From assembly GCA_903939515.1 (NCBI GenBank), contig CAJAHH010000145.1:1-37574 (forward strand): 37,574 nt of DNA, given 5' to 3'. Shown piece by piece: positions 21,103-37,193 of this stretch. The position numbers and the translations under genes are program-made. Source of the stretch: an uncultured Verrucomicrobiota bacterium (GTDB lineage: Bacteria; Verrucomicrobiota; Verrucomicrobiia; Limisphaerales; UBA9464). Numbering within the stretch: the first letter of the stretch is position 1; each line of letters opens with the position of its first letter. The notes beneath the pieces are model-generated. The model worked only from the letters and a program-made list of their open reading frames with translations. It searched no databases and was not told where the DNA came from.

Positions 21103-22404
21103 TCAGGACATCGAGTAAGACCACGGGGCCCGCGGCTTGCGTGACACCAGTCGATTGGCTTCGGGGTCTTTGCGGAACTGCTCCTTCACCGGATCCCAAT
21201 GCAGTGGGCGGCGCAACTGGTAGCCGATGTTCGCCAAGTGGCAGACGGAGGCTGTTCGATGGCCCACTTCGGCCGGACAAATGGCCTGACGCCGGTCTCG
21301 CACGCAGTCCAACCAGTTCCTCATGTGTTGGTTAGAGGGGTAGACGCGTTGGTCGGTGGCTGACAAGGGAGCGCTCAGGATCTCCGGCCGACTGCTCTCC
21401 AGGACACCGCGGTCCACATAAAGGGTTCCATCGGTTCCCTCGAAGGTGCATCCGCTCTTCCCACCGTGGAAGAGTTCTACGCCGTTGGCATAGGTGAACT
21501 TGAGTCCGCTGACAGCGTCTCCCGCGGGCGGCGTAATTAACGTGGGGCCGCTGGCGTCCATGCCCATGGCCCATTGCGCGATGTCAAAGTGGTGCGCCCC
21601 CATATCGGCCAAGGAGCCTCCAGCAAACTCACGATAATTGCGGAAGAGCGGGTAGTGCCGGTGCATCCCCTTGGGACACAGGATCTCGTTGTAGCCACGC
21701 GACGGGGCCGGGCCCAGCCACAGTTCCCAATTCACATCGGCGGGTGTGGGTTGATCGGGTAAATCGCACGCCACCGGCGGAGCGCCCACGCCCACGTGAA
21801 TCGTCTTGAGGCGACCAATTCGGCCATTCCAGATAAACTCCACGGCCTTCCGGAACCGGTCGTTGAACTCGCTGCGCTGCTGGCTGCCGGTCTGGAAGAT
21901 GATGTGGTGTTTCTTCACTGCATCCACCAACAGGCGTCCCTCGTGGATGTTTTGAGTCAGGGGCTTCTCGCAATAAATGTCCTTCCCCGCCCGGGCCGCC
22001 GCCAAGGCGATGACCACATGCATGTGATCGGGTGTGGCCACAACAACCGCATCGATGTCCTTACGGGCAATCAAATCGCGAAAATCGATATAAGCATCGC
22101 AACCTTTGAACACCCCGTCTTTTTGGCGCGCCGCGTAGCGCTTCTCTACTTGAGCTTGCGCCGTTTCCCGACGGGTCTTCTCCACATCGCAAACGGCCAC
22201 CACTTGAACATCCTCAAATCCTAACAACCGATCGAGATGGGGACGTCCCATGGCACCAATGCCAATCATTCCGACGGTGATGCGCTCCGAGGCCGATCGC
22301 GAGCGGGCTGCCGGCATCGATAGTGGCATCAAGAGCATTCCGGCTCCGGCCACGGCAGTCCCGCGGAGGAATTGACGTCGGGATTGGGTGAATTGCGTTT
22401 TCAT
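21103..22404 (-). CDS. Tat-exported Gfo/Idh/MocA family oxidoreductase
   Basis: 433 residues. The N-terminus MKTQFTQSRRQFLRGTAVAGAG is a twin-arginine signal. The Rossmann domain follows with ITVGMIGIGAMGRPHLDRLLG, VATPDHMHVVIALAAARAGKDIYCEKPLTQN (the EKP motif) and the C-terminal alpha/beta domain with GGSLADMGAHHFDIAQWAMGM. Such exported enzymes carry a tightly bound NAD(P) and interconvert sugars, often on the cell surface of Planctomycetes/Verrucomicrobia; some act as glycosidases by redox cycling. Substrate unknown. ATG at 22404 is preceded by CCCTCC and no Shine-Dalgarno. Its gene follows the LamG/cytochrome/propeller gene by 92 bases on the same strand, so they are likely co-transcribed. 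Confidence 0.95.
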   Translation of the reverse strand: MKTQFTQSRRQFLRGTAVAGAGMLLMPLSMPAARSRSASERITVGMIGIGAMGRPHLDRLLGFEDVQVVAVCDVEKTRRETAQAQVEKRYAARQKDGVFKGCDAYIDFRDLIARKDIDAVVVATPDHMHVVIALAAARAGKDIYCEKPLTQNIHEGRLLVDAVKKHHIIFQTGSQQRSEFNDRFRKAVEFIWNGRIGRLKTIHVGVGAPPVACDLPDQPTPADVNWELWLGPAPSRGYNEILCPKGMHRHYPLFRNYREFAGGSLADMGAHHFDIAQWAMGMDASGPTLITPPAGDAVSGLKFTYANGVELFHGGKSGCTFEGTDGTLYVDRGVLESSRPEILSAPLSATDQRVYPSNQHMRNWLDCVRDRRQAICPAEVGHRTASVCHLANIGYQLRRPLHWDPVKEQFRKDPEANRLVSRKPRAPWSYSMS

Positions 22405-22495
22405 GGAGGGATTGGGTGTATTCAAAACACGCAATCCATCCGCGGTCCACTGTGGATCAGTGGCTTCTGCTATCACGCCCCCACTTCCAGATCGG

Positions 22496-25400
22496 TTAGG
22501 ACCTCGTGAGGTCGTTGACCGTGCCATGCAGCACCCGCTCCACCGTAGTCCCACCCGGAACAGCCAAACGCAGCTTCAACTCATAGCAATGGGTCGGAGC
22601 CAGGTCCGGGATGTCCAAAATCAGCGTTCGACGATCTCCCTCCAGGCGTACCCCTCGAATCGACAGCGCCCGTTCGTTGTGGTGATCCGAACCATAACCC
22701 GCCGTTCTTTTGAGTGACCAGACCTTGAAGGCAAACGCCTCAGGCCGGATCGCTTCGGGATCCACGGGATCGCTCAGGCGCACCGCCAAGGTCCCTTTGC
22801 TCGGCTCGATAGCCACCGGCAGATAAGCCGGCGTGTTCGCACGACGAATGCGGTGAAAACCTCCAGGGCCCGTTGCATTGCCTGCCCACGCGAACATCCC
22901 GCACGTGTATAACGCCCCGTCCGATCCAAATCGGCCGCGCATAATCCCCGTGGCAAAGGCCGGCATGGGTAACTCGCACACTGCTCCCTGTGACGGAGCG
23001 TTTCGCTGGGAATGCGGCACGATGAACACGCGGCCGGTGCCATAGCTGAGATTCAAGAGCGAACCGCCCAAAGAGCCCCAGGCTCCCTTCGGTACCCACA
23101 CCAATTCCGCCGGACTGCGATCCTTCTGGTTGGTGATCCAAACCATGGGCGGTTCCATGGCCGAGTCGGCCGTGTTGGTCACACTCGTGTAGCCGAACAT
23201 GTTTCCGTAAAAGCCCCCGACGTGCACCCGGTTGATCCGGTTCTTTGGAGTCCAAAAACCCTCCTGATCCGTCACGAAGAAAGTGCCATCAGGATTGAGA
23301 CACACTCCATTGGCTGCCCGGAAGCCGGTGGCCAAGATGTCCGTCTGAAGACCATCAGCCCGCACCCGCAACAAGGTGCCATGGTGAGGCACCACTGAGT
23401 CCAAGGCATGACGGCCGGACTTGGCATAATACAAGTTGCCCGACTCATCGGTTTGCAAACCCATGGCGAATTCGTGGAAGTGCTCGGTGACCTGGTGGTC
23501 GTTGTTGAAATTGCCGATGAAATCCACCTCTCCGTCGCCGTTGAGATCCTGGAGCCGCGCGATTTGATCGCGGCACGTGATGAAAAGATCCTGGCCTCGA
23601 TATTTGACCCCCAATGGTTGGAACAGACCGCTCACGATCCGTTTCCACCGCAGGGTCGCCGGGGCCGGATCCGTCAGGCCTTCCACCCGCCAGACATCGC
23701 CATTCCAAGTGCCCACCATGGCGGCACGACCGTCGGGCGTAAAATCAAACCCGCCCGGGCGCATCCAACTTTGCCACGGGTTCTCCACCGGCAGCGGAAA
23801 GTCGTCGGCAATAAATGGGCCATCGGTTTTTCCAGGCTGCGACCGAGTCTCGATTTCTTCATCCCAACGCTTCGGGCCACCATGGGTGAGCGGCTCCAAA
23901 TCCATCGAACCACGAATGGTCGGCATCAGCGCGGCGAGCGACGCGGGATCGGCCCGCGAAATGTAAATTCGGGTCTTGGCCGAAGGCGGCAATTCAGCGA
24001 CCCAAAAGCCGGACTGTTTTCTGAGAGACCCATCTCCCGACAGCGCCACCGAGACGGTCTCTGGGGCTACCCTCAGTTGGATGGGCTTGCCCAACTTCCC
24101 GAGATTTAGGGTGCGGGTAAAAACCGGTGTGGTGCCGTAATCAAGCCAACCCGGCGACTCGAGCACCCGCGTGCCGCCGACGGTGGCCGCGATCACCACC
24201 ATTTTGCCGTAAAGATAGAGCCCGTCATACCGTGCCCATTCCCGAGGCAAGGGGCCGTAGCGACGCCCGTCCTTCCCGAGCAGACGGTGGTCAGTCCAAT
24301 CACCCTCAGGAGAAGCGACTCCCGGGGCGACCGGATTCACGAAATGCCGTTGGCCAATCAAGCCCGTGTGGGTTCCGTGGCTGCCATCAAAGGCAATGCC
24401 CTTCCAATCCACGAACTCGCCGGTCGTCGCCGCGGCCACCCGCAGCGTGTCCTCATCGTAGACCATCCAAGCACGTCCCTTGCTGACGCCGCCGGGCCCT
24501 TCGTCGAGACGAATGGCGATGCCCTTCTGGGCGATATTTCCCGGTGCCACTTGGAAGGTCCAAAAGAGCGCCGGGCCGAAATCCATCCGCAGATACGGCG
24601 CAGGCGTCCGATCTTCCACTTCGACCGGAGCCCGCGTGAGCCCCTTAGGCAGTGCGTTCAACAGAGCGGGCGTCACGGCGACAAACTGACTGGGATTGTG
24701 CGGCCTTAGGAACGTCTCCCGGATGTACTGGATCACACTGTACTTCTGGGCGGTCGTGTACTGGTTCTGTGGCACCATCTGCCCATAACCATGGGTCAAG
24801 GTGTGGAACATCGAGTCTGGGTCTGAACCATTCTTGAACACGCCCTCCGCAAAGCGCAGCGCGGTCGGAAGCGATCCCGGTGTTTCTCGGGTTCCGTGAC
24901 AGGCCACGCACAGCGCGTCGTAGATGGTCTTTCCTTCGGCCAAGGTGCGATCATTCCAACCCGCCACCAACGCAGCATGGTCCGCTGTTTCCAATGGCTG
25001 CACCCAAGCGTGACGCACAGCCACTCCGTTGGCGGGTTCGATGACAGGACGATCGGAGGCATCGCCCGGTTGGTGAACAAAGTCGGCAGTCCCAACGGTC
25101 GGTCCGGCCGGATCCAGCAACGCACCGATTTCGGATTCCGAGAATCCCCGCCGCCACAGTCTCACGCTTTCCACCCGACCGCGGCTCAAGTTCCCAGCGA
25201 AGTCGGGAGTGGCCCTGCCCACCTTGAGAATTTGCCCGGCGGGATCTGGCTTCGAAAAATCCGCCCGGTCCGCAATCTTGCGGCCATCGAGCCAAATCCG
25301 TGTTCTCCCAGAGATCACGCTGAGAATAGCCACATGGGATTTCCCGTCATCCACCCGAGGGCCGCCGCTCAAGGCTCCCAACCAACCGATGTCATAAACC

Positions 25401-25921
25401 AAATGACCATCCCGTATGAACAGCGCCTTGGAACCGGGCTCCCAGTTTCCATGGGGAGAACACACGGCCAAGAGAGTGCCTGGCCCCTGGGCCTGAAACT
25501 GCACCCGAGCACTCACATCCTTACCGAAGGCAATGCCCGCCGATGGAAACTCGAAACCACTGCCGGTGCTCAGTGCCGGAACCTCTTCGGGACCTCGGAC
25601 CCGCGCGCCATCGCTCCAAACACGGAGAATCGGCGGCCCCTCTGCGGGGTACTCCACCGCGATGTCCTGAGCCACCGATCCACTGAGTGGAAGACTCCAG
25701 TCCTTACCCCATCGGACCACCCCACCGGCTTTGTCGGTGAACTCAACATGCAAGCGGTAGCTGCGAGGCCACTCCGGAGTGTCCAGAGAGAGGGCATGCC
25801 GCGGCGGAGCGGAGGCCAGAGCTTGGATCAACGAAAGCCCGGCCAATGCGGCCAATGCGGCCAATGCCGGCATCCAAACCCGCAGGGCAACTCCGTCCAG
25901 AAAACGTCTCTTCGCAGTCAT
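22496..25921 (-). CDS. Exported LamG / cytochrome c / DUF6797-like / beta-propeller protein
   Basis: 1141 residues. Signal peptide (MTAKRRFLDGVALRVW then an Ala/Leu core) to about residue 37. Residues about 120-270 resemble a LamG/concanavalin jellyroll (ILSVISGRTRIWLDGR, VESVRLWRRGFSESEI). A mono-haem cytochrome c follows with CVACH (C338, C341, H342) and axial Met candidates in GYGQMVPQN. Residues about 430-650 look like the DUF6797 type domain of this group. Residues about 690-1030 form a beta-propeller of the sugar dehydrogenase kind (GLFQPLGVKYRGQDLFITCRD, LNGDGEVDFIGNFNNDHQVTEHFHEFAMG, GFRAANGVCLNPDGTFFVTDQEG). A short C-terminal sandwich ends it. It probably oxidises or binds carbohydrate outside the cell and passes electrons to haem; this is inference. 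Confidence 0.85.
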   Translation of the reverse strand: MTAKRRFLDGVALRVWMPALAALAALAGLSLIQALASAPPRHALSLDTPEWPRSYRLHVEFTDKAGGVVRWGKDWSLPLSGSVAQDIAVEYPAEGPPILRVWSDGARVRGPEEVPALSTGSGFEFPSAGIAFGKDVSARVQFQAQGPGTLLAVCSPHGNWEPGSKALFIRDGHLVYDIGWLGALSGGPRVDDGKSHVAILSVISGRTRIWLDGRKIADRADFSKPDPAGQILKVGRATPDFAGNLSRGRVESVRLWRRGFSESEIGALLDPAGPTVGTADFVHQPGDASDRPVIEPANGVAVRHAWVQPLETADHAALVAGWNDRTLAEGKTIYDALCVACHGTRETPGSLPTALRFAEGVFKNGSDPDSMFHTLTHGYGQMVPQNQYTTAQKYSVIQYIRETFLRPHNPSQFVAVTPALLNALPKGLTRAPVEVEDRTPAPYLRMDFGPALFWTFQVAPGNIAQKGIAIRLDEGPGGVSKGRAWMVYDEDTLRVAAATTGEFVDWKGIAFDGSHGTHTGLIGQRHFVNPVAPGVASPEGDWTDHRLLGKDGRRYGPLPREWARYDGLYLYGKMVVIAATVGGTRVLESPGWLDYGTTPVFTRTLNLGKLGKPIQLRVAPETVSVALSGDGSLRKQSGFWVAELPPSAKTRIYISRADPASLAALMPTIRGSMDLEPLTHGGPKRWDEEIETRSQPGKTDGPFIADDFPLPVENPWQSWMRPGGFDFTPDGRAAMVGTWNGDVWRVEGLTDPAPATLRWKRIVSGLFQPLGVKYRGQDLFITCRDQIARLQDLNGDGEVDFIGNFNNDHQVTEHFHEFAMGLQTDESGNLYYAKSGRHALDSVVPHHGTLLRVRADGLQTDILATGFRAANGVCLNPDGTFFVTDQEGFWTPKNRINRVHVGGFYGNMFGYTSVTNTADSAMEPPMVWITNQKDRSPAELVWVPKGAWGSLGGSLLNLSYGTGRVFIVPHSQRNAPSQGAVCELPMPAFATGIMRGRFGSDGALYTCGMFAWAGNATGPGGFHRIRRANTPAYLPVAIEPSKGTLAVRLSDPVDPEAIRPEAFAFKVWSLKRTAGYGSDHHNERALSIRGVRLEGDRRTLILDIPDLAPTHCYELKLRLAVPGGTTVERVLHGTVNDLTRS
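25846..25872 (-). repeat. 9-base tandem repeat in a signal peptide
   Basis: The forward strand reads CCAATGCGG-type units about three times in succession, encoding the LAALAALAGL hydrophobic core of the signal peptide of the 1141-residue protein. Slippage here would change core length by three residues at a time. Confidence 0.6.
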
Positions 25922-26006: not shown

Positions 26007-26831
26007 TCACTTCGCCTGGGTCGCTGGCTTGGACAGTGAACCTGGCGAATCTAGAATCGGTCGATCACCCATGAGTTTGGCCAACGTGGGCTCGATGGCC
26101 TGAACCCAGGCTTCGGCACCGGCAGGACTGGGGTGGAGCAAGTCCCACATCAACTCGGTGTTAATCGTGCCGTTGGAGCGCAAGAAGACATGATTTACAT
26201 CGAGCCAGAACACGTGCTTTCCATCCGCCAGGCTGGCGGTGAGTTCCCCTGCACGACGGCATGTTTCGATGCACTTGGCGGAAGAATTAAACGTCGGAGG
26301 GCTGATACCTTTCTCGCTATCGCCACCCCGCGGAAACACTCGCAGCACCAATATCTTGGTACTGGGATGCCGCTGGCGAATGAGATCAACAATCGCCCGG
26401 GTGCCCGCAAAAATCTCTTCCGGTGAATGGGTGCGGGCGAAATGACGATCATCGGCATTATTCGTCCCGATCAAGAGCATCGCCACCTTGGGCGACTGTG
26501 TGAACTCCAGTTGGCCATTCTGGAGGTTCCACAAAATCTCCTCAGTACGCTGCCCATTCATCCCAAGATTGATGGCTCGGCGCGGCTCAAAGTGCCGCTG
26601 CCACACCGCTTGGTTGGGAGCGTATTTACCATCATTCATGTCTCCGACGGTGTGCGTGATGGAATCGCCGATGAGTGCGAGATCGTAGTGGCCGGCCTTA
26701 ACGGCCTTTACCTTTTCCACATGACGCGCATTGGCGTTCTTGGTCGGGTAATCAGAGTCCCCGGGCTTAGACTCAGCGAGGCTGAGTGACACCCAGGTCA
26801 TCCCGACTAGAATGATGGTTTTGAAGTTCAT
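26007..26831 (-). CDS. Secreted SGNH/GDSL hydrolase (acetylesterase-like)
   Basis: 274 residues. Sec signal MNFKTIILVGMTWVSLSLAES. Block I LALIGDSITH holds the catalytic Ser; block II INLGMNGQRTEEILWNL gives the oxyanion Gly; block III LIGTNNADD gives the oxyanion Asn; block V DLLHPSPAGAEAW gives the catalytic Asp/His pair. This is the set of SGNH hydrolases related to PAF acetylhydrolase and to carbohydrate acetylesterases. It probably removes acyl groups from sugars or glycans outside the cytoplasm. ATG at 26831 opens the signal peptide; no clear ribosome site is seen. It sits between the DUF1552 gene (51 bases upstream) and the LamG/cytochrome gene on the same strand. Confidence 0.93.
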   Translation of the reverse strand: MNFKTIILVGMTWVSLSLAESKPGDSDYPTKNANARHVEKVKAVKAGHYDLALIGDSITHTVGDMNDGKYAPNQAVWQRHFEPRRAINLGMNGQRTEEILWNLQNGQLEFTQSPKVAMLLIGTNNADDRHFARTHSPEEIFAGTRAIVDLIRQRHPSTKILVLRVFPRGGDSEKGISPPTFNSSAKCIETCRRAGELTASLADGKHVFWLDVNHVFLRSNGTINTELMWDLLHPSPAGAEAWVQAIEPTLAKLMGDRPILDSPGSLSKPATQAK

Positions 26832-26882
26832 TTCAGTGCGTGGCAGCCGATCGCTTCGAAGGCTCATTCCTCAGGATGGGCC

Positions 26883-28265
26883 TTAAAGAAAGGTCGTCAT
26901 TTCTCGAATTTGTTTTGTCGCAATCCCAACAGGTCGATCCAGTGGAATACCCACACACGCGAGCAGCGTGGTCAGAAGGTCTCCTTGGTTGCCCTTGACG
27001 CCTGTTAGGAAGCGGCCGGTGTTGAGGGATCCCCCGCCCTTTCCAGCGAGGATGAACGGCAGGTTTTCCCGGGCGTGCACGTTGCCGTCTTCCAGCCCGG
27101 AGCCCCACATCATGATGCAGTTGTCGAGCAGCGTGCCGTCCCCTTCCTTCAGTTGATGCATCTTCTGCACCATCCGGGCGAACTGGGCGATGTTGAAGGC
27201 GGTGATCGCCGCCACCTTGCCGAGTTTATCGGCCTCGTTGTTGTGGTGCGTCTGCGAATGGTGTTCGTCGTTGAACCCCAGTTCTGGATACGAAACCCCA
27301 TTCGGAGTGGAACCGATGTAAGTGCTCACGCGAGTCGTGTCGGTCTGGAACGCCAGCACGTTCAGATCACACATCACCTCCATGTATTCGCTGCGCTTTT
27401 CGCCCTCGGGAATTTTGATGTCGATGGGCGGCGAATCCGATGCCAACCGTTTGCTCACACTTACACCCGCTGCTTCCAAGGCGGCTTCCTTCTGGCGGTA
27501 CTCGATGGCAGCAATGCGACGTTCTACACTGCGAACGCTGTCGAGGTATTCATCGAGCTTGTGCTGATCATCCCGAGGCAACTTGCGGCGCAAGTCTTTG
27601 GCACCGCCAAGGACGAGATCGAGCATCTGACGATCCAAAGGATCGGCCTTGCCGGAGCTCCCAGTTTTCTTGGACTTCCCAAAGAGCCGATTGAGAACGT
27701 TCCGCGGATTGATTTCGGCTGGTACGGCCTGAGTGGCCGAACGAAAACTGCAGTGGGAATAGTACCCCTCGTTGAGGCCGTCTTGGTTCTCCTTGTGCGT
27801 CTGGGGCATCGTGGCCAACTCCAGAGACGGCAGCGCCGTGAAGCCTCCGATAAAATTCGCAGCGATCTGGTCAGCAGAAATTGCGATTTTAATCACATCC
27901 CGCTGATTTGCATCGGGCAGTGCCGCGGTGAGCCAGGTGGACAACTCGAGCGCATGGGGAGCCCCATTGAACGGGGCGATTGGAACCCCCGAAATCCCCT
28001 TCATCATGAGGCACTGGTTCAGCACAGGCCGCAGCGAAGCCAAGGCAGGCGGTGGAGAGGTTAGAAAACTCTCCGGACTCTTCGGCCAAAACTGCTCCAT
28101 GATGACCCCATGGGGCATGTACATGAACCCGAGTCGGACCGGCGGTTTGCCAGCCTTGCCCTTGCCGGCTTCGGCCCAAGCCATGGTGTCCAAAAATGGG
28201 AGGGCCAGCGATGCACCGATCCCTTTCAGGCACGTGCGACGATCCATCCGATGGTTACTTTTCAT
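26883..28265 (-). CDS. Tat-exported DUF1552 protein
   Basis: 460 residues. The N-terminus has [26 protein letters not shown], a Tat signal (RRxCLKG). The body matches the DUF1552 pattern: [41 protein letters not shown]-type segments, [21 protein letters not shown]-type block, [21 protein letters not shown] and [31 protein letters not shown]. It belongs to the alkaline phosphatase/sulfatase-like fold group that includes DUF1501, with conserved His/Asp residues suited to a metal site. Family function is not established. It overlaps the preceding DUF1592-type cytochrome gene by 11 bases, so the two are translated together, as is typical of this pair. ATG 28265 is used; ATG 28247 is an alternative without overlap. 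Confidence 0.93.
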
Positions 28266-30207
28266 GGAGAGTAGAAGCGATTGAGTCTTGGACCCGTCGG
28301 TGCGTAAACGGATAACTAGTGGCGATTTCCGTGATGAGTGTCTGCAGGCGATAGCCGTCTTTAGCGAGGGTTTCCACCAAGTGATCCACAACGACCTCGT
28401 CGTAGCCCTCTAACTGCCGGCAAAGGGCGTAGGCCAGGAACTTTTCCGTCAAATTCCGAGCCAAATCACCCGGACGAGCGGCGATGAGTGTTTTGAGATC
28501 TTTGGGCGCGCTGAAGCGTTTCCCTCCGGGGAGTTCCCCGGCCGCTTCAATGGCCCCGCCGGTGTCATCGCGATCGCGCCAACGGCCAATGGCATCGAAG
28601 TTCTCCAGACCAAAGCCGATGGGATCCAGAATCTTGTGGCAGTTGGCACACACGGCGTCGGTTCGGTGAAGCTCGGTCCGCTGCCGCAAGGTCAGTTGGG
28701 CGACGGTTTTTTGATCCTGCTTTTCCAATGCCGGAACATTCGGCGGTGGCGGCGGCACCTTCTCACCCAGCACCTGTTCCAACACCCACACGCCGCGTTT
28801 GACCGGACTGGTGCGGTTCGGAAACGAAGTCGTCGCCAGAACACCCGGCATTCCGAGGACACCGCCCCGATTGGGATCCGTCAGCTTAACCCGGCGCATT
28901 CGCGACCCGGTGACGGTGTTTTCCAGCCCATAAATCGGCGCGAGGGTTCCATTGAGGAACGTGTAATCCGAATCCACAAACCGCACGACACTCCGGTTTT
29001 CGCGCACGATGCTCTCAAAGAACAGGCGGGCCTCCTCGTACATCGCCCAGCGCATCCCGGCGTTCATTTGCGGAAACTTCGCGGCGTCGAACGTCTTACT
29101 TTCCAAACTCGCCAGTCCCAGCCACTGCGCGCCAAACCCGTCAAACAACGCCCGAGACCGCGGGTCTTTGAGCAAGCGCTTCACCTGAGACCTGAGGACT
29201 GCTGGATCATGGAGTTTTCCGCGATCCGCCAGAGCCGCCAATTCCGCGTCGGGCTGGGTGGCCCACAGCAAATAAGACAATCGGGAGGCGAGTTGATGAT
29301 CATCCAAGCGGACAATCCCACCGACGGGCTGCCCCTCACCCTGGGGGGTAATGAAAAGGAACTGTGGTGATACCAGCACTGCCTTGGCCATCAAACGCAG
29401 CGCCTCGTAGTAGGGCAGACCGTTCGTGCGCCCTAGGTCGAATACACCCAAGAGCACGTCCAGTTCTGCTTCGGCGGGAGGACGTCGATAAGCCTTCCGA
29501 GCCAGAGACCCCGCCACCGTTCTTGCTGCGACACGCAGGTCAGCACCGCTTCGAGGCACCGACCCCAACCAACGCCGTTGCGCGGAACTCGGAGTCGCTC
29601 CACCCCGGGGCAGGATTCGATCCAGCACCTCGTTGGCGATGCTCAGATACTGCTCCGATTGAAGGGGCGACAACGTGTTTAAGTATCCCTCCCCAATCAC
29701 CTCGTCCGGTAACTCACGGGCGATCGCCGGATCCACGCCGAAGAGATCGTGCAGCGTATTGCCATACTCGACCTTGGTGAGGCGACGAATCACGAACAGC
29801 CCGGGATCCTTCTGGCTCAGGAACTTGATCTGGGCGATCCCGTTTAGAAATGCCTGCCGCTCCGAATCCGTTGGCTGCTTTTTGGCATTGGCTGGCGGCA
29901 TGTCGTGAGTCTTGACGTTGGCGGCGGCCTGCTTCCACCGCTTAGCGATCGTCGCATCGCCCGCATTGCTCAGCGCCGGCTGAAAATTAATACCCCCCTT
30001 CTGCCGATCTTGGCCGTGGCAGCCGATACAGTAGGTCTTAACGAAGGGAGTGACGCCGTCTTGAAAAGACTTCTGGGCGTCGGCCTTCAGCGCGGCGAAA
30101 TCCCGATTAACCCGAGACTCCGCCAGACCAGTCCAAGTGAGGATCAACATGAATCCGCAGAGGGCCTTGGCCCGCTGAAGACCGCTCGGTAATTCGGAGA
30201 TTCGCAT
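28255..30207 (-). CDS. Planctomycete-type di-haem cytochrome (DUF1587-DUF1595-DUF1592-DUF1588-DUF1585)
   Basis: 650 residues. A signal peptide (residues 1-31, [16 protein letters not shown]) is followed by a cytochrome-like domain with CIGCHG (C60, C63, H64) and methionine in [10 protein letters not shown]. Then come [20 protein letters not shown] (DUF1587), [19 protein letters not shown] (DUF1595), the central DUF1592 ([34 protein letters not shown]), DUF1588 ([19 protein letters not shown] and the second haem site [20 protein letters not shown]520-H524) and DUF1585 at the C-terminus ([23 protein letters not shown]). The order and length are those of the family. It is presumably periplasmic or surface-attached; enzymatic role unknown. 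ATG at 30207 is preceded by CTCTCC rather than a ribosome site. Confidence 0.95.
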
Positions 30208-30357
30208 GGAGAGCGGCTCCAAGCATGAGCAGAACGTGCCGAATGACAACGGATAGGAATTGGCCCCGACCGCTCTGCCATTCCAACGCCGTGTTCAATC
30301 CGGAGTCCAAAGACCCTTCGTCCGTGGATTCCCGGAGTAGAGTCTGAGGTGCAGGGT

Positions 30358-31638: not shown

Positions 31639-32155
31639 GGCCTGCAACTGGGGAGACCAAGAGCCAACAGCGTGCGCAGCGCCCTCAAATTCACCACCAC
31701 AATCGAAGCGCCAGTTCTCCTGATGGTCGTACAGATTCCACGGTCAAGGGGAAGATCTTCTGGTCCCGTCGTTCGATTCCAGAGCTGGCAACCCAAGGAA
31801 ACGGGGCCGATCGGGGCGAGGCCGTAGGACACTCGTAGGACAGTGGCCTGAAAAACTGAGAAACCAGCGCCGCGTTTGCCCCTCTGGCGTCACCGGGTCG
31901 ACGACTGGATGAGCTGCCAGCTTGCAGCGATGGCGAGAGAGGGGGCTCGCTCGAAGTGACGTCATTTATCAAGCAACTGGAATGGGTTTACCTACCTGGA
32001 TTGATCCGTGCTTAGAAAAGTAATTGCGATGTCTATGTGTCGTGATGTATATGTAGCTCATGAAGAAGCCGCTGAAGTATTCGAGCGCGTCAAAACCGCC
32101 GGATGTCTTGCGCGATCTCCCCGCGCTGTCCAGAGGACTCAACGAGTCCGTGGGT
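31639..32155. other. Gene-free divergent intergenic region of about 500 bases
   Basis: No convincing protein is encoded on either strand: the short open frames are compositionally Arg/Ser/Pro-rich shadows without family motifs. It holds a direct repeat GTAGGACA at about 31825-31845, the palindrome TGACGTCA near 31957, and an AT-richer stretch from about 31965 to 32060 suitable for the promoter of the toxin-antitoxin pair. I see no RNA gene. Confidence 0.5.
32024..32051 (+). promoter_or_regulatory. Possible sigma-70 promoter for the toxin-antitoxin pair
   Basis: TTGCGA (32024-32029) and TGTATA (32046-32051) are separated by 16 bases in the AT-richer part of the gap. If real, transcription would begin near 32058, which favours the antitoxin start at 32156 over 32060. 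Consensus match is moderate. Confidence 0.3.
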
Positions 32156-32452
32156 ATGGTTCGCACCCAAATTTATCTGACGCGCACCGAGCACGGTTTC
32201 ATTGAGGCTGAGGCGGCGCGCCGGGGTGAAACAATGGCGGCAGTGATCCGTGGCTGCATTGACGACAAGATGCGGGTGCCCGACACCGCGTGGGCAGCCA
32301 ACCCCATGCTGGAGCCCACGCCGTCGGATGCCGGTCTCGAATTGCCGGAGGATGCTGCCATCAACCACGACCACTACCTCTACGGAACGGCCAAAAAACA
32401 TCTAAAGAAACGGGGTAAATGGGTGCTGGCCGAATCGGAGGCGAGACACTGA
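32156..32452 (+). CDS. Ribbon-helix-helix-like antitoxin (VapB-like)
   Basis: 98 residues from ATG 32156. The N-terminus MVRTQIYLTRTEHGFIEAEA then ARRGETMAAVIRGCIDDKM is a strand-helix-helix DNA-binding unit of the CopG/Arc type. The acidic, proline-containing middle (MLEPTPSDAGLELPED) and the C-terminus HDHYLYGTAKKHLKKRGKW form the likely toxin-binding tail. The stop overlaps the toxin ATG by one base (TGATG), the usual coupling in toxin-antitoxin pairs. RHH antitoxins normally repress their own operon. An in-frame ATG at 32060 would add 32 residues (KKPLKYSSASKPPDVLRD), so the start is uncertain. No ribosome site distinguishes them. Confidence 0.75.
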   Translation: MVRTQIYLTRTEHGFIEAEAARRGETMAAVIRGCIDDKMRVPDTAWAANPMLEPTPSDAGLELPEDAAINHDHYLYGTAKKHLKKRGKWVLAESEARH

Positions 32453-32862
32453 TGCACAGCCACCGAGTCTTCCTCGATTCGTCGTTCTGGATCGCCTTCC
32501 GAGATGCGCGCCAGACCCATCATGCCCGGGCGCGCGAGTGTCTGGCCGCACTGTTTCAAGAGCGGACCCACTTCGTGAGCACGCCCTTAGTGTTCGCGGA
32601 AACCCATGCAACCTTCGCTCGTTCACTGGCGGTGCGCGAAAAGATCATCGCCGACTTCTGGGAAAATCCGCTGCTTCATTTCGCGGAGGTCACCGACGCC
32701 GACCACCGCGCGGCCATCCAGTTTCTGAGGCAGCACGCGGACAAGTCGTATCCCTTCTGCGATGCGATTTCGTTCGTCGTGATGCGGCGACTGGGAGTGA
32801 AACGGGTCGCCGCCTTTAATGACCACTTTCGGCAAGTCGGTGGGTTTGAGGTAATTGGGTGA
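32452..32862 (+). CDS. PIN-domain toxin (VapC-like ribonuclease)
   Basis: 136 residues, the normal size of a VapC toxin. The acidic active site is complete: D in FLDSSFWIA, E in LVFAETHATF, D in YPFCDAISFVVM and D in AAFNDHFRQVG. VapC-type PIN toxins cleave tRNA or rRNA with Mg2+, and are inhibited by the paired antitoxin. The ATG overlaps the antitoxin stop by one base. The pair sits beside a REPIN-like repeat and between two unrelated operons, which fits a mobile accessory module. The exact antitoxin family for this toxin is not the classical VapB, so the label VapBC-like is deliberate. Confidence 0.9.
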   Translation: MHSHRVFLDSSFWIAFRDARQTHHARARECLAALFQERTHFVSTPLVFAETHATFARSLAVREKIIADFWENPLLHFAEVTDADHRAAIQFLRQHADKSYPFCDAISFVVMRRLGVKRVAAFNDHFRQVGGFEVIG

Positions 32863-33080: not shown

Positions 33081-34484
33081 CTAACCCGAGGCGATGACCT
33101 CGCGGACCACGTTGCCGAAGACGTCGGTCAGCCTGAAATCGCGGCCAGCATGACGGAAGGTGAGGCGTTCATGGTCGAAGCCCAAGAGCTTCAGCATGGT
33201 CGCATGCAAGTCGTGAACTGAGACCGGATTCTCGACGGCCCGAAAGCCGAAGTCGTCGGTCGCTCCATGAATGGTTCCACCCTTGATGCCGCCTCCTGCC
33301 ATCCAGAGGGAAAACCCCCAATGATTGTGGTCCCTGCCCTGTGCGGCTCCCGATCCGTTTTGACCCATCTCCACCGACGGCGTTCTCCCGAACTCTCCGC
33401 TGCACAAGATGAGGGTGCTCTCCAACATACCCCGTTGCTTCAAATCCATGATTAATGCCCCGAGGCCTTGATCGCACTCGTTGGCCACCTTGCGATGTTC
33501 TTCACGAATGTTCGAATGACTGTCCCAGGGCTGCATGTTTCCGTGCCACGTCTGCACGAATCGCACCCCGCGTTCGACGAGGCGGCGGGCGATGAGTAAC
33601 TGCCGATTCTGCGGTCCTTCGCCGTAAGCCTTCCGGATGTGCGCGGGTTCCTGATCCACATCAAAGGCATCGGTCGCCTCCATTTGCATACGGTAGGCCA
33701 GCTCGAAGGATCGAATCCGCGACTCAAGGGCCGCCTCACCGGGCCGAGATGCCAAGTGATCGGCATTGAGTTCTCGCAACAAGTCGAACTGCCGCTGTTG
33801 ATCTTGAGGTCCGAGGCGCGCGTTGCGGATGTGGTCGATCAACTTCCGCGGATCGGCTTGCGAGGTGTCGACGTGCGTTCCCTGATAGGAACCCGGCAAG
33901 AACGCCGAGCGCCAATTGGCGGCTCCTCCCACCGGCATCCCGCCGGGGCATAAAGCGACAAAGGCCGGTAAATTCTGGTTCTCGGATCCCATGCCCCACG
34001 TCAACCACGAGCCAAAACTCGGACGCACCAGCCGCTGATCTCCGGTATTCATCAGCATGAGCGACAGCTCGTGGCTGGGCAGCTCGACATTCATCGACCG
34101 GATGACCGCCAATTCGTCTGCACATTGAGAAAGGTGAGGAAAGAGATCGCTGATTGGGATCCCGCTCTGACCGTGTTGCCGGAAGGTGAAGGGTGATGGA
34201 AGGGCAACTCCCGTCTTGCGCTCCGTCTGGAGGTTTTCATAGGGCAGCATCTGGCCCGCCCGACGCGTGAGCTCCGGCTTGGGATCAAATGTGTCCACCT
34301 GCGACATGCCGCCATTGAGAAAGACATGAATGACCCGTTTCGCGGTGGGAGCAAAGTGCGGGACCAGGGGCATGTCTCCGGCCAAGGCTGGCTGGCAGAC
34401 CAAATCTGCGAGGGCCAGAGAGCCGAAGCCCATGCCGCAACGCTTCAGGAAGTTGCGCCGTGATTGAGGAAGCAAGGGGTTCAT
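33081..34484 (-). CDS. Tat-exported DUF1501 protein
   Basis: 467 residues. N-terminus MNPLLPQSRRNFLKRCGMGFGSLALADLV is a twin-arginine signal (SRRNFLKR). The DUF1501 pattern follows: KRVIHVFLNGGMSQVDTFDPKPEL (metal-binding-like Asp), HLSQCADELAVIRSMNVELPSHE, PSFGSWLTWGMGSENQNLPAFVAL, RRLVERGVRFVQTWHGNMQPWDSHSNI, and TLILCSGEFGRTPSVEMGQNGSGAAQGRDHNHWGFSLWMAGGG. The fold belongs to the sulfatase/alkaline phosphatase superfamily. Function unknown, but DUF1501 genes nearly always follow DUF1549/DUF1553 cytochrome genes, as here (10 bases apart). ATG at 34484 is preceded by AACCCC without a ribosome site. Confidence 0.95.
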   Translation of the reverse strand: MNPLLPQSRRNFLKRCGMGFGSLALADLVCQPALAGDMPLVPHFAPTAKRVIHVFLNGGMSQVDTFDPKPELTRRAGQMLPYENLQTERKTGVALPSPFTFRQHGQSGIPISDLFPHLSQCADELAVIRSMNVELPSHELSLMLMNTGDQRLVRPSFGSWLTWGMGSENQNLPAFVALCPGGMPVGGAANWRSAFLPGSYQGTHVDTSQADPRKLIDHIRNARLGPQDQQRQFDLLRELNADHLASRPGEAALESRIRSFELAYRMQMEATDAFDVDQEPAHIRKAYGEGPQNRQLLIARRLVERGVRFVQTWHGNMQPWDSHSNIREEHRKVANECDQGLGALIMDLKQRGMLESTLILCSGEFGRTPSVEMGQNGSGAAQGRDHNHWGFSLWMAGGGIKGGTIHGATDDFGFRAVENPVSVHDLHATMLKLLGFDHERLTFRHAGRDFRLTDVFGNVVREVIASG

Positions 34485-34494
34485 GGGGTTCAGT

Positions 34495-37026
34495 TCAGTC
34501 CACGAATGAAAACTCATTGGAGGCGAGCAACGAATGCGCCGCCTGCTGCCACGCCGCGGCCTGAGCCGTTTCGTCGCCAGTCCGCACAAAACGCACGATA
34601 CGATCGAGCTCTGCAGGTCGGGGTTCGCGAGCAAACACGCGGCGGTAAAGCTCCCGGGCGTGCAGGACGGTGTCCTTGCCCGCAACCTTACCGGTCAGCG
34701 CAGCCAGCGCCTTGGCTCGATCTTGGACAAACTCCGAATTCAGTGCGAACAAGGCCTGCTGGGGAACCGTGGTGTCCGGTCGACGGGCCGTGCATGCGCT
34801 GGGGTTGGCCGCGTCGAAGGTGCTCGACAAGTTCGACAAAATGTCTCGGTTCACAAAGGCGTAAACACTGCGACGCAGCACTCCGGCTTGAGCCTGCCGA
34901 TCGAAGGGCTTCCCGCCCATGGTCAGGTCAAGTTCACCCGATGCCCACAGCATGGAGTCCAGCATCGCCTCCATCTCCAGTCGGTGAGTCGGCATGCGCC
35001 ACCAGAGCTGGTTGTCCGGATCGATATTCCTGGCCTTCTCGTTCTCCAGAGATCCTTGCGCATACACGGCCGAGAGCATGATGCGGCGGTGCAATCGCTT
35101 GATGGATCCCCCATCTGAGGCGAAGGCCGATGCCAGATGATCGAGCAATTCCGGATGCGTCGGACGGTTGCCCCGCGTGCCCCAGTCGTCGGGCGTTCGG
35201 ACCAAACCTTGGCCGAAATGATGCTGCCAAACCCAGTTCACCAAGACCCGGCGTGTGAGGGGGTTTTCCGGAGAAACAACCGCGCGGGCCATACCGAGCC
35301 GGCGGGAACCCTCAGGAAAGGGTTCCGCACCCGATCGGCTCAGCACGGACAAAAATTGCGGCTTAACCACGTCGCCTCGGGTCAATGGGTTGCCCCGCTT
35401 CAGCACATGGAATGCGGCGGGGGCCGGAGACTCGCTCAGAACCATGGCGCGGGCCGGAGATCCTGCCGCGGTCAGGTGCAACTCGTGAATGCTCCCTCGA
35501 CGTCCTCCCAAAGTGTCATTGACGGTGCGATTGAGAAGTTTCAATGCGACCGCCTCCGTCACCGCGGTCGGAGTGCTTCCACCGTAAAGATGACGACGCA
35601 ATTGCCGCTGGACCGGGCTGTTGATTTCGAGTTGCCGAGGGTCTTCGTCCGGAATGAGTTCTGCCCCGCTTGCTGCTTCGGCAGACGCCGTCATGAGCGC
35701 CTTCAACCACGCTTGATGCACGCCAGCGAAAACCTCCCCGTAAGCATCCGCGACCTCGGCGAGGGACTTGCGAGGCTTCCGCCCCATCGCTTCCAGAACC
35801 CGAGGGTTCCATCGCGGGCCTTCAGCGGGGAGTTTGTGCAAGTCCTTGATGGCGGCGGGGTCCCCGTTCTCCTTGTGGAGCGTGTTCACCAAATTCGTGC
35901 ACGCCGCCTCAAATCCGTCCGCCGGCAATCGTGCCAGACGCACCCAGGGCCCGAACACAGGATCGGTGTCGGGCATCCCAGCGAGGTAATCGCGCCAACG
36001 ATTGAAGATCAACGGACGGATGTCATCGGTGCGATAGGACAGGAACTCCGTGGAGACATCCTGCTCCGGAACCCCCTTGGCGATCTCGCGCAAGTAGAGG
36101 CCCACCTGCATTCGCAGGCGGCCGCGCATCACCTCATTGTGCTCCGCGGCCATGTCATCGTGACGGGTCTGGAGGCGAACCAACTCCAGCTGATAGTCAC
36201 GGTGCGCGTCGTTGGTTTTGCCAGACTCAATCACCGGCAGAGAATCGGGCACGCCGCTGGCAGCCAATGTCGCGTAGAGGGAATAGTAGTCTCGGGTGGA
36301 AATGGCATCGAACTTGTGATCATGGCATCGGGCACAGGCCACGGTGAGGCCCATCAAGCCCCGTGAAACGACATCAATCTGATCATCGATCACGTCGTGC
36401 CGGTTGCGGTATTGCATGCCGACCGTAAGAAACCCCAATCCCGCGAGGGCCGGATCATTCTCCTTCAGACCCAGTTGATCGGCGGCGATTTGCTCGGTCA
36501 CAAACCGCTCGTAAGGCACGTCGGCGTTGAAGGATCGGATGACGTAATCCCGGTAGGTATAGGAGAACGGAAACCGCGTGAAACCAATGGCGCTCCCACC
36601 GTGAGTGTCGGCGTAGCGGGCGAGATCGAGCCAGTGGCGGCCCCATCGCTCACCGTAGCGTGGTGAATTGAGCAGCCGGTCCAACACCTTCTCGCGGGCA
36701 TCGGGCGACGCATCCGACAAGAAACCCTGAACCTCATCCCAAGACGGAGGCAGCCCAGTGAGGTCAACGGTGGCGCGCCGAATCCAGTCCAACCGAGAGG
36801 CCGGTGGCGATAGGGACAAACTGCGAGACTGAAGTGCAGAAACGATAAACCGATCGATTTCGGTGTGAGAGGGATCCACACGCGGGGGAGGCACTGGGTT
36901 CCCCACCGGCTGATAAGCCCAGTGGTTTGTGCCGCTCCCAGCGAGCGGTGCAGCTCCCCGCAGCCCGAAGGCAAAGCACCCAACCACTATCCAAGCGGCA
37001 AGGAGTTGCTGGAAACCCATCCGCAT
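34495..37026 (-). CDS. Planctomycete-type cytochrome DUF1549/DUF1553 protein
   Basis: 843 residues. Signal peptide MRMGFQQLLAAWIVVGCFAFGLRGA. DUF1549 (about 50-260) begins NHWAYQPVGNPVPP and EIDRFIVSAL, with DLTGLPPSWDEV, YGERWGRHWLDLARYADTHGG and the haem site CARCH (C231, C234, H235) in VACARCHDHKFDAIS. DUF1553 (about 560-840) has NPLTRRVLVNWVWQHHFGQGLVRTPDDWG, HPELLDHLA, YRLEMEAMLDSML-like text and a CTARRPDTTVPQQALFALNS block. Unlike longer relatives there is no separate N-terminal cytochrome domain. Start at ATG 37026 is chosen because it opens the signal peptide; 37020 or 37056 are possible. It forms a tight pair with the DUF1501 gene. Confidence 0.95.
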   Translation of the reverse strand: MRMGFQQLLAAWIVVGCFAFGLRGAAPLAGSGTNHWAYQPVGNPVPPPRVDPSHTEIDRFIVSALQSRSLSLSPPASRLDWIRRATVDLTGLPPSWDEVQGFLSDASPDAREKVLDRLLNSPRYGERWGRHWLDLARYADTHGGSAIGFTRFPFSYTYRDYVIRSFNADVPYERFVTEQIAADQLGLKENDPALAGLGFLTVGMQYRNRHDVIDDQIDVVSRGLMGLTVACARCHDHKFDAISTRDYYSLYATLAASGVPDSLPVIESGKTNDAHRDYQLELVRLQTRHDDMAAEHNEVMRGRLRMQVGLYLREIAKGVPEQDVSTEFLSYRTDDIRPLIFNRWRDYLAGMPDTDPVFGPWVRLARLPADGFEAACTNLVNTLHKENGDPAAIKDLHKLPAEGPRWNPRVLEAMGRKPRKSLAEVADAYGEVFAGVHQAWLKALMTASAEAASGAELIPDEDPRQLEINSPVQRQLRRHLYGGSTPTAVTEAVALKLLNRTVNDTLGGRRGSIHELHLTAAGSPARAMVLSESPAPAAFHVLKRGNPLTRGDVVKPQFLSVLSRSGAEPFPEGSRRLGMARAVVSPENPLTRRVLVNWVWQHHFGQGLVRTPDDWGTRGNRPTHPELLDHLASAFASDGGSIKRLHRRIMLSAVYAQGSLENEKARNIDPDNQLWWRMPTHRLEMEAMLDSMLWASGELDLTMGGKPFDRQAQAGVLRRSVYAFVNRDILSNLSSTFDAANPSACTARRPDTTVPQQALFALNSEFVQDRAKALAALTGKVAGKDTVLHARELYRRVFAREPRPAELDRIVRFVRTGDETAQAAAWQQAAHSLLASNEFSFVD

Positions 37027-37193
37027 ACCCAGGCCATGCCATCGACAACGATCCATGGGAGGGTGACTGCTGCAGGGGCTCATAAGTGAAAACGTGTGCG
37101 GAAACACCGCGCTCATCAAGCCTCACCATGGAAGCGCTATAGACGGTCTAAATTCTAACTCCCACTCGTCGCAGCATAAATGCGGACCCCGAA

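Follow-up and report, generated by a model that had tools for sequence, protein, structure and literature searches.

The window analysed here is a 37,574-nucleotide stretch of DNA from an uncultured Verrucomicrobiota bacterium (GenBank assembly GCA_903939515.1, contig CAJAHH010000145.1). Our subject is a gene within it encoding a multidomain protein that joins a c-type cytochrome domain to a sugar-dehydrogenase-like propeller. The gene lies on the minus strand as a single uninterrupted open reading frame (ORF) of 1141 codons plus a stop at 22496-25921 (Table 1), an interval across which frame 1 of the plus strand contains several stops. The single 1141-residue chain given by the initial annotation, which was made from the sequence alone, is thus verified, and we add the strand. 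A chance ORF or artefact was rejected because of clear conservation and synteny.

Table 1. Features of the haem-propeller gene and its immediate neighbours in the window
Feature	Coordinates	Strand	Residues	Basis
Whole ORF, exported-looking multidomain haem-propeller protein	22496..25921	minus	1141 aa	translation; 48 full-length relatives aligned
Signal peptide or N-terminal anchor, with KRR, a hydrophobic run and a cleavage-like ASA	25811..25921	minus	1-37	by eye; low-confidence model helix 23-35
Small N-terminal β domain, retained in LamG-less relatives	25568..25801	minus	~41-118	model, comparison of relatives
LamG/pentraxin-like jellyroll	25061..25564	minus	120-287	PF13385 below cut-off; fold match to PTX3 7zl1
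Class-I cytochrome c domain, C338-V-A-C341-H342, Met382 likely sixth ligand	24698..24979	minus	315-408	PF13442 over cut-off
DUF6797 domain, β-supersandwich-like	23852..24604	minus	440-690	PF20601; model of residues 436-694
Sugar-dehydrogenase-like propeller	22832..23824	minus	700-1030	Foldseek, VIA-align, profile alignment
DxNxDGExD loop within propeller, probable calcium-binding	23522..23548	minus	792-800	D792, N794, D796, E798, D800 invariant, 49 rows
C-terminal β-sandwich, Ig-like by appearance	22508..22831	minus	~1031-1138	model strands
Gfo/Idh/MocA oxidoreductase, Tat (twin-arginine translocation) signal, 88 bp downstream	21103..22407	minus		Pfam; synteny
GDSL/SGNH hydrolase, 85 bp upstream	26007..26867	minus		Pfam; synteny
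DUF1552 (HXXSHH) protein	26883..28391	minus		Pfam
Planctomycete-type cytochrome protein (PSCyt1, PSD5, PSD3, PSD4, PSCyt3, PSD2)	28255..30249	minus		Pfam

A scan of genome contigs returned at least 586 stretches encoding relatives, and the best 80 loci, nearly all labelled as belonging to the Verrucomicrobia group, were kept. The query was aligned with 48 of 59 selected full-length relatives, which share 47-96% identity with it, giving an alignment of 49 rows. The AlphaFold2 model built on this alignment (mean predicted local distance difference test score, pLDDT, 83.4; predicted template modelling score, pTM, 0.71) is consistent with a jellyroll, haem helices, DUF6797 and a propeller. The four domains of the initial annotation are therefore borne out by the model and, for DUF6797 and cytochrome c, by Pfam matches over cut-off, but it had missed the small N-terminal β domain and the C-terminal sandwich, the latter having no Pfam family match. 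With an N terminus that by eye resembles a signal sequence, the protein is probably exported, as had also been proposed. Sequence searches of the PDB returned cytochromes, designed propellers, LamG-type chains and one S-layer chain, with no sugar dehydrogenase among them, while a viral structure library yielded proteins with LamG domains or propellers, including pithovirus glucose/sorbosone-dehydrogenase domain proteins.

As for the modules that precede the propeller, the jellyroll is matched by Laminin_G_3 (PF13385) at residues 183-265 with 18.7 bits, below the cut-off of 27.6, and its model superposes on the pentraxin PTX3 (7zl1) with a VIA-align Z of 16.5 (2.8 Å, 160 residues). Cytochrome_CBB3 (PF13442) matches residues 327-400 with 33.2 bits (cut-off 27), Cytochrom_C staying below its cut-off. 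The model places helices at 324-342, 368-377 and 390-408, and C338, C341, H342 and M382 are present in all 49 rows. The domain thus displays, in sequence and model, the CxxCH motif, downstream Met and small helical fold of a class-I cytochrome c, with a putative site of haem attachment. DUF6797 (PF20601) is clearly recognised at residues 486-588 (88 bits, curated cut-off 24.9) and, when residues 436-694 are folded alone, is modelled with a pLDDT of 89.6 and a pTM of 0.88. This model had no Foldseek match at E <= 0.001, and its best VIA-align match was weak, with a Z of 9.0 for the periplasmic domain of YidC and 6.8-7.6 for mutarotases. The VIA-align list consists largely of what we take to be supersandwich chains (the YidC periplasmic domain, glycoside hydrolases, lyases and galactose mutarotases), a weak sign in the model that DUF6797 may be a carbohydrate-binding-like, mutarotase-like supersandwich domain.

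The propeller, six-bladed when the strand list of the model is read by eye, carries the clearest homology. Its Foldseek ranks 1-12 are all prokaryotic PQQ (pyrroloquinoline quinone) or putative sugar dehydrogenases (E 1.3e-10 to 4.4e-9), and VIA-align superposes it on glucose dehydrogenase 7cgz with a Z of 19.1 (2.7 Å, 280 residues) and on 2ism, 3a9g and 2g8s with Z of 18.0-18.8. Fold by itself is not decisive, since designed and NHL propellers fit nearly as well (up to Z 18.8, reached both by a designed one and by Cj1041c) and lactonase propellers reach 15.8-17.0. For sequence comparison we used a propeller alignment, A2, holding 34 of the 49 rows, and a wide set, comprising 47 rows, in which one paralogue is represented by two overlapping pieces. 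Against a profile of Escherichia coli Asd and eight GSDH-family sequences from the window's own genome, hhalign gave 97.0% (E 8.6e-11) for the narrow set and 98.7% (E 3.5e-16) for the wide set, the latter over 278 of 340 columns and colinear. Single-sequence controls were uneven, nine GSDH-type sequences scoring 0.4-96.6% and the SGL protein L108 57.1%, and we therefore base the homology on the profile comparisons and folds. By these, the propeller is to be regarded as a remote homologue of the PQQ sugar dehydrogenases, which upholds the sugar-dehydrogenase-like propeller of the initial annotation.

The same comparisons bear on an alternative in which the propeller, as an SMP-30/gluconolactonase-type hydrolase or lactonase, would act on sugar lactones and the haem would be no more than an add-on. 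SGL (PF08450) does match residues 824-885, at 16.2 bits against a cut-off of 26.3, and recurs in the relative at L063; together with the lactonase Z scores this is what such an activity has in its favour. NHL also falls below its Pfam cut-off within the propeller, and GSDH (PF07995) has no match to the protein at E up to 1. However, the SGL proteins of the own genome match the propeller profile only locally and out of register (120 columns, 93.9%, E 1.6e-7), compared with the 278 colinear dehydrogenase columns, and the top 50 listed Foldseek matches include no SMP-30/SGL-type lactonase. Because its profile match is local and out of register, we rejected a lactonase as first choice, and consider it quite improbable.

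Next to the fold stand the residues. His814/His816, Glu817, Arg868, Gly888, Trp890, Ser936, Gln978 and Trp1012 are strongly conserved in the propeller, and the DxNxDGExD loop is presumably a calcium site, judging by its motif. Residues of soluble glucose dehydrogenase (sGDH) were mapped onto the propeller through Asd by profile alignment; their location on Asd, and Arg406 as a contact of PQQ, are taken as background. According to the available portions of two reports, His144 of sGDH is the base, Arg228 and Asn229 lie at the PQQ ketones, Gly247/Pro248 at the calcium, and Lys377 at the C-7 carboxyl group of PQQ, an Arg408 being named as well (PMC6881810, PMC6881789). In our alignments, His144 falls on His814 by profile; the wide set retains His816 in 46 of 47 rows and His814 in 39, and which of the two equals the base is uncertain. 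Arg228 falls on Arg868, which like His816 and Gln978 is kept in 46 of 47 rows, the remaining row being a gap. Glu/Asp817, Gly888 and Trp890 are each found in 46 of 47 as well, and Gly247 falls on Glu887, adjoining Gly888. At the sequence level the propeller is thus not devoid of candidate catalytic residues, an outcome the initial annotation had named as fatal to its proposal: the His/Glu pair and the Arg are strictly kept.

The other contacts of PQQ have a different fate. Asn229 falls on Ala869, which is Ala in 34/34 family propellers and, in the wide set, Ala in 41 rows, Ser in three, Asn in two (one paralogue, two pieces) and a gap in one. Lys377, Arg406 and Arg408 fall on Gly961, Gly992 and Met994, respectively. 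The mapping therefore indicates a propeller with a base-like His and an Arg228 equivalent and no equivalents of Asn229, Lys377, Arg406 or Arg408, and the PQQ site that the initial annotation had proposed to look for is largely missing. The eight own-genome GSDH-family sequences served as controls: all have equivalents of His144 and Arg228 and seven that of Asn229, with Lys377 and Arg408 found in none and Arg406 in three, which makes the carboxylate anchors a weak test. Since anchor loss is common in these controls, a missing Asn229 is the more specific indication; the available portions of PMC6881810 and PMC6881789 give the residue here as Asn for CcPDH and as Asp for TrAA12.

PQQ supply points in the same direction as the loss of Asn229. 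We searched for pqqC (TIGR02111) in 37 genomes holding the protein or its core: the genome of the window and 36 others identified from family loci, of which three (L066, L068 and L070) have the haem-free core only. None of the 37 has a match, completeness being stated for the own genome (95.9%), and none was found in the control set of this search either. The profile does work in the phylum, scoring over its cut-off in 6/288 genomes. On the strength of the residue mapping and of this result we rejected a plain "PQQ sugar dehydrogenase" label, and canonical use of PQQ is not supported. A true PQQ-dependent sugar dehydrogenase could nevertheless scavenge PQQ from neighbours and anchor its carboxylates unlike sGDH, as in AA12, which, according to the available part of PMC6881789, binds PQQ without an equivalent of Lys377. 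The homology to Asd fits this idea, as do the eight control sequences that lack Lys377 and Arg408 yet all have the His144 and Arg228 equivalents. So does the own genome itself: it has no pqqC match but 16 matches to the GSDH family, two of which fall in a single gene, and scavenged PQQ is accordingly conceivable. Against it count Ala at the position of Asn229, the retention of Arg228 alone among the five contacts mapped, and pqqC in 0/37 genomes; we find it unlikely, if not negligible. Three own-genome GSDH-family genes (L101, L102 and L103/L104, the last being one gene) contain two or three CxxCH motifs.

The propeller is also where conservation is greatest. Over the 49 rows, 111/331 of its positions are invariant, compared with 20/94 in the cytochrome domain, 35/251 in DUF6797, 5/168 in LamG, 1/78 in the N-terminal domain and 8/108 in the C-terminal sandwich. 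Mean conservation decreases from propeller through cytochrome and DUF6797 to LamG, which fits a catalytic core with accessory modules. The accessory modules can indeed be absent. Among the best 80 loci, 61 encode LamG and haem, seven have haem without LamG (L047, L053-L056, L060 and L061), eight have neither, and four are cut or broken and were set apart as uninformative on architecture (L046, in two frames, and L051, L064 and L065, at contig ends). The four-part fusion of the initial annotation is therefore real in 61/80 relatives but is one variant only. Six of the eight forms without either consist of DUF6797 and propeller alone (L063, L066, L068, L069, L070 and L079). None of the eight has a CxxCH anywhere in the chain, and within up to 4 kb upstream of them (less contig being present for L063, L067 and L079, and almost none for L063), same-strand ORFs of more than 120 aa had a single CxxCH, near L072 and apparently there by chance. 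The eight cluster within the haem-bearing rows, with a support of 91 (the threshold of the program being 95), in a quick tree rooted at its midpoint. Since relatives exist without haem and without LamG, both are detachable, and DUF6797 plus propeller is the core of the family.

Three observations on gene structure were made alongside. In L067 (2582-5728) and L072 (7383-10385), the DUF6797-propeller unit is joined, without haem, to a different N-terminal domain with a HEFAH motif, which from the motif we presume to be zinc-peptidase-like; a Pfam scan of L067 matched DUF6797 only. L046 (60-3603) is a near-identical gene split across two frames of one contig, by sequencing error or as a broken gene. 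In L084/L088 (own genome, C61), a 33.3-bit DUF6797 match and a propeller follow a long, apparently unrelated N-terminal region.

Such modularity would also suit a non-catalytic binding or scaffold protein, whose propeller and jellyroll dock glycans or partners and whose haem serves sensing or structure. Propellers and LamG domains often act as binders, the haem-free, LamG-free and HEFAH-domain-fused forms speak of modular use, and designed propellers fit the fold nearly as well. Binding or scaffolding does not readily account for a propeller whose invariant third includes His, Glu, Arg, Gln and Trp among relatives of 47-96% identity and whose invariant share exceeds that of every other domain, and we judge it improbable, though not far-fetched.

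The family is common in the order to which the window belongs and is uncharacterised. Matches at E <= 1e-60 are found in 123/196 genomes of the order, with many being remoter paralogues at 35-45% identity, and close matches (E <= 6e-261, at least 49% identity, counted by hand) in 41/196, the own genome included. The 42 close matches in these 41 genomes first align at query residue 135 or before in eight cases, at 199 in one near a contig end, at 284-313 in 23 (haem aligned, LamG not) and at 396 or beyond in 10. The own genome has five DUF6797 matches, and DUF6797 occurs in 4/145 genomes of a phylum-wide sample. Two metagenome-assembled genomes titled Klebsiella pneumoniae (L016) and Proteobacteria (L052) hold close homologues (69% and 66% identity, respectively), and their tree positions suggest mislabelled verrucomicrobial bins or contigs.

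Known systems resemble the protein in part. The best NCBIfam match is TIGR02604, "PVC-type heme-binding CxxCH protein" (Piru_Ver_Nterm), which comes from the same bacterial group and likewise unites a propeller and c-type haem on one chain. It matches all six relatives or paralogues scanned, in five of them as best match, whereas the query scores 26.1 bits, below the cut-off of 122.2, and has its haem N-terminal to DUF6797 and propeller. The own-genome GSDH-type protein L101, unlike the query, has its CxxCH motifs behind the propeller stretch. With soluble PQQ sugar dehydrogenases (sGDH, Asd/YliI; PF07995) the protein shares fold, colinear profile homology and equivalents of the base His and Arg228, but it lacks a PF07995 match and the equivalents of the four other PQQ contacts. 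A parallel in architecture is CcPDH of Coprinopsis cinerea (AA8-AA12-CBM1), described in the part of PMC6881789 available as one chain with a cytochrome, a six-bladed sugar-dehydrogenase propeller and a carbohydrate-binding module (CBM). CcPDH, however, has haem b in a β-sandwich domain and a CBM1 where the query has haem c, LamG and DUF6797, and the PQQ residues are not common to both; we infer that the two architectures were assembled independently. As for PSCyt/PSD proteins, these are verrucomicrobial haem proteins too, and the available text of PMC5615132 reports that in freshwater Verrucomicrobia their genes, some with CBMs of LamG type, often lie near sulfatases, a role in carbohydrate metabolism being suggested. 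One of them is encoded in the gene row of the query, which itself has no PSCyt/PSD domain among its Pfam matches at E up to 1. Freshwater Verrucomicrobia were thus already known to have proteins that fuse haem with CBMs and haem proteins encoded close to sulfatases, and a cytochrome-dehydrogenase-CBM chain was known from a fungus. A literature search of partial coverage found nothing on DUF6797, Piru_Ver_Nterm or this domain combination.

The gene sits in a same-strand row with short gaps, formed by the genes for the PSCyt/PSD protein, the DUF1552 protein, the GDSL hydrolase, the haem-propeller protein and the Gfo/Idh/MocA oxidoreductase. In six near-identical loci (L001-L004, L017 and L046), the Gfo gene is directly downstream in all, the DUF1552 and PSCyt genes are present in five (L046 begins at a contig end), and the GDSL gene is found in L001 only. 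Outside these loci the neighbours of the window are mostly absent, and the commonest neighbour is a sulfatase. Single linkage grouped 51 sulfatase ORFs in 30/80 loci, one representative being confirmed by Pfam; a profile check, partly circular in that the profile was built from 32 of the group's own members, recovered 43 of the 51, in 26/80 loci. Genome-wide counts were made for 36 of the loci; 13 of these contain 29 sulfatase ORFs in all, where 3.5 to 8.4 would be expected. The expectation uses capped counts, with 46 scored per genome, and takes first-look candidates as its upper bound, and because sulfatases cluster the Poisson values are indicative only. Sulfatase genes are therefore enriched beside relatives, not beside the query gene.

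Elsewhere in the window, the plus strand at 32060-32862 encodes a PIN domain protein and a small partner without Pfam match, possibly a toxin-antitoxin pair, between two planctomycete-type cytochrome gene groups; L001, L002 and L004 have a related PIN-like ORF. At 33081-37119 on the minus strand, a DUF1501 gene adjoins a PSCyt2/PSD1 (DUF1549/DUF1553) gene.

Taking these results together, we favour reading the protein as a modular redox enzyme that is exported and takes part in carbohydrate breakdown, tentatively and at slightly less than an even chance. Its LamG jellyroll would hold a glycan, as probably would the supersandwich-like DUF6797, and the propeller would oxidise a sugar or polyol using His816 (or His814) as base, aided by Arg868 and a metal. 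From there, electrons would enter the on-chain c-type haem (His342/Met382), which would deliver them to the respiratory chain. A sugar dehydrogenase that passes on electrons in this way is plausible, and its cofactor may be another quinone, a differently bound scavenged PQQ, or none. The idea of the initial annotation that binding, oxidation and electron transfer could share one chain is accordingly still plausible, with fungal CcPDH as precedent, but it has to do without the canonical PQQ ligands and without a pqqC match in the genomes searched.

Several points weigh against such an enzyme. Designed, NHL and lactonase propellers come close in fold, the identity of the base is ambiguous, the equivalents of Asn229, Lys377, Arg406 and Arg408 are gone, and pqqC has no match in any of the 37 genomes. 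Eight relatives keep the core without haem, and electron transfer via the haem is hence not essential to the family. No sulfatase lies near the gene in the window or in the six closest loci, where one weak profile match is the DUF1501 gene, and PSCyt proteins are predicted, in the available portion of PMC5615132, to be periplasmic or cytoplasmic, not extracellular. A more specific proposal would have the family keep the base, the Arg and the calcium-loop neighbourhood but change the cofactor, to another quinone or none, in genomes lacking PQQ synthesis; electrons would go to haem c on the same chain, and (desulfated) glycans would be oxidised outside the cytoplasm. We regard this proposal, taken as a whole, as distinctly unlikely.

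Verrucomicrobia and their relatives have many haem and propeller proteins without a known reaction. The present family is a good entry point to them, being common, with sharply defined invariant residues, natural haem-free and LamG-free versions, and sulfatases near some of its members. If these proteins do oxidise sugars without canonical PQQ, this would help to explain such propellers in bacteria that lack PQQ synthesis; if they do not oxidise sugars, the "sugar dehydrogenase" label on many such genes would need correction.

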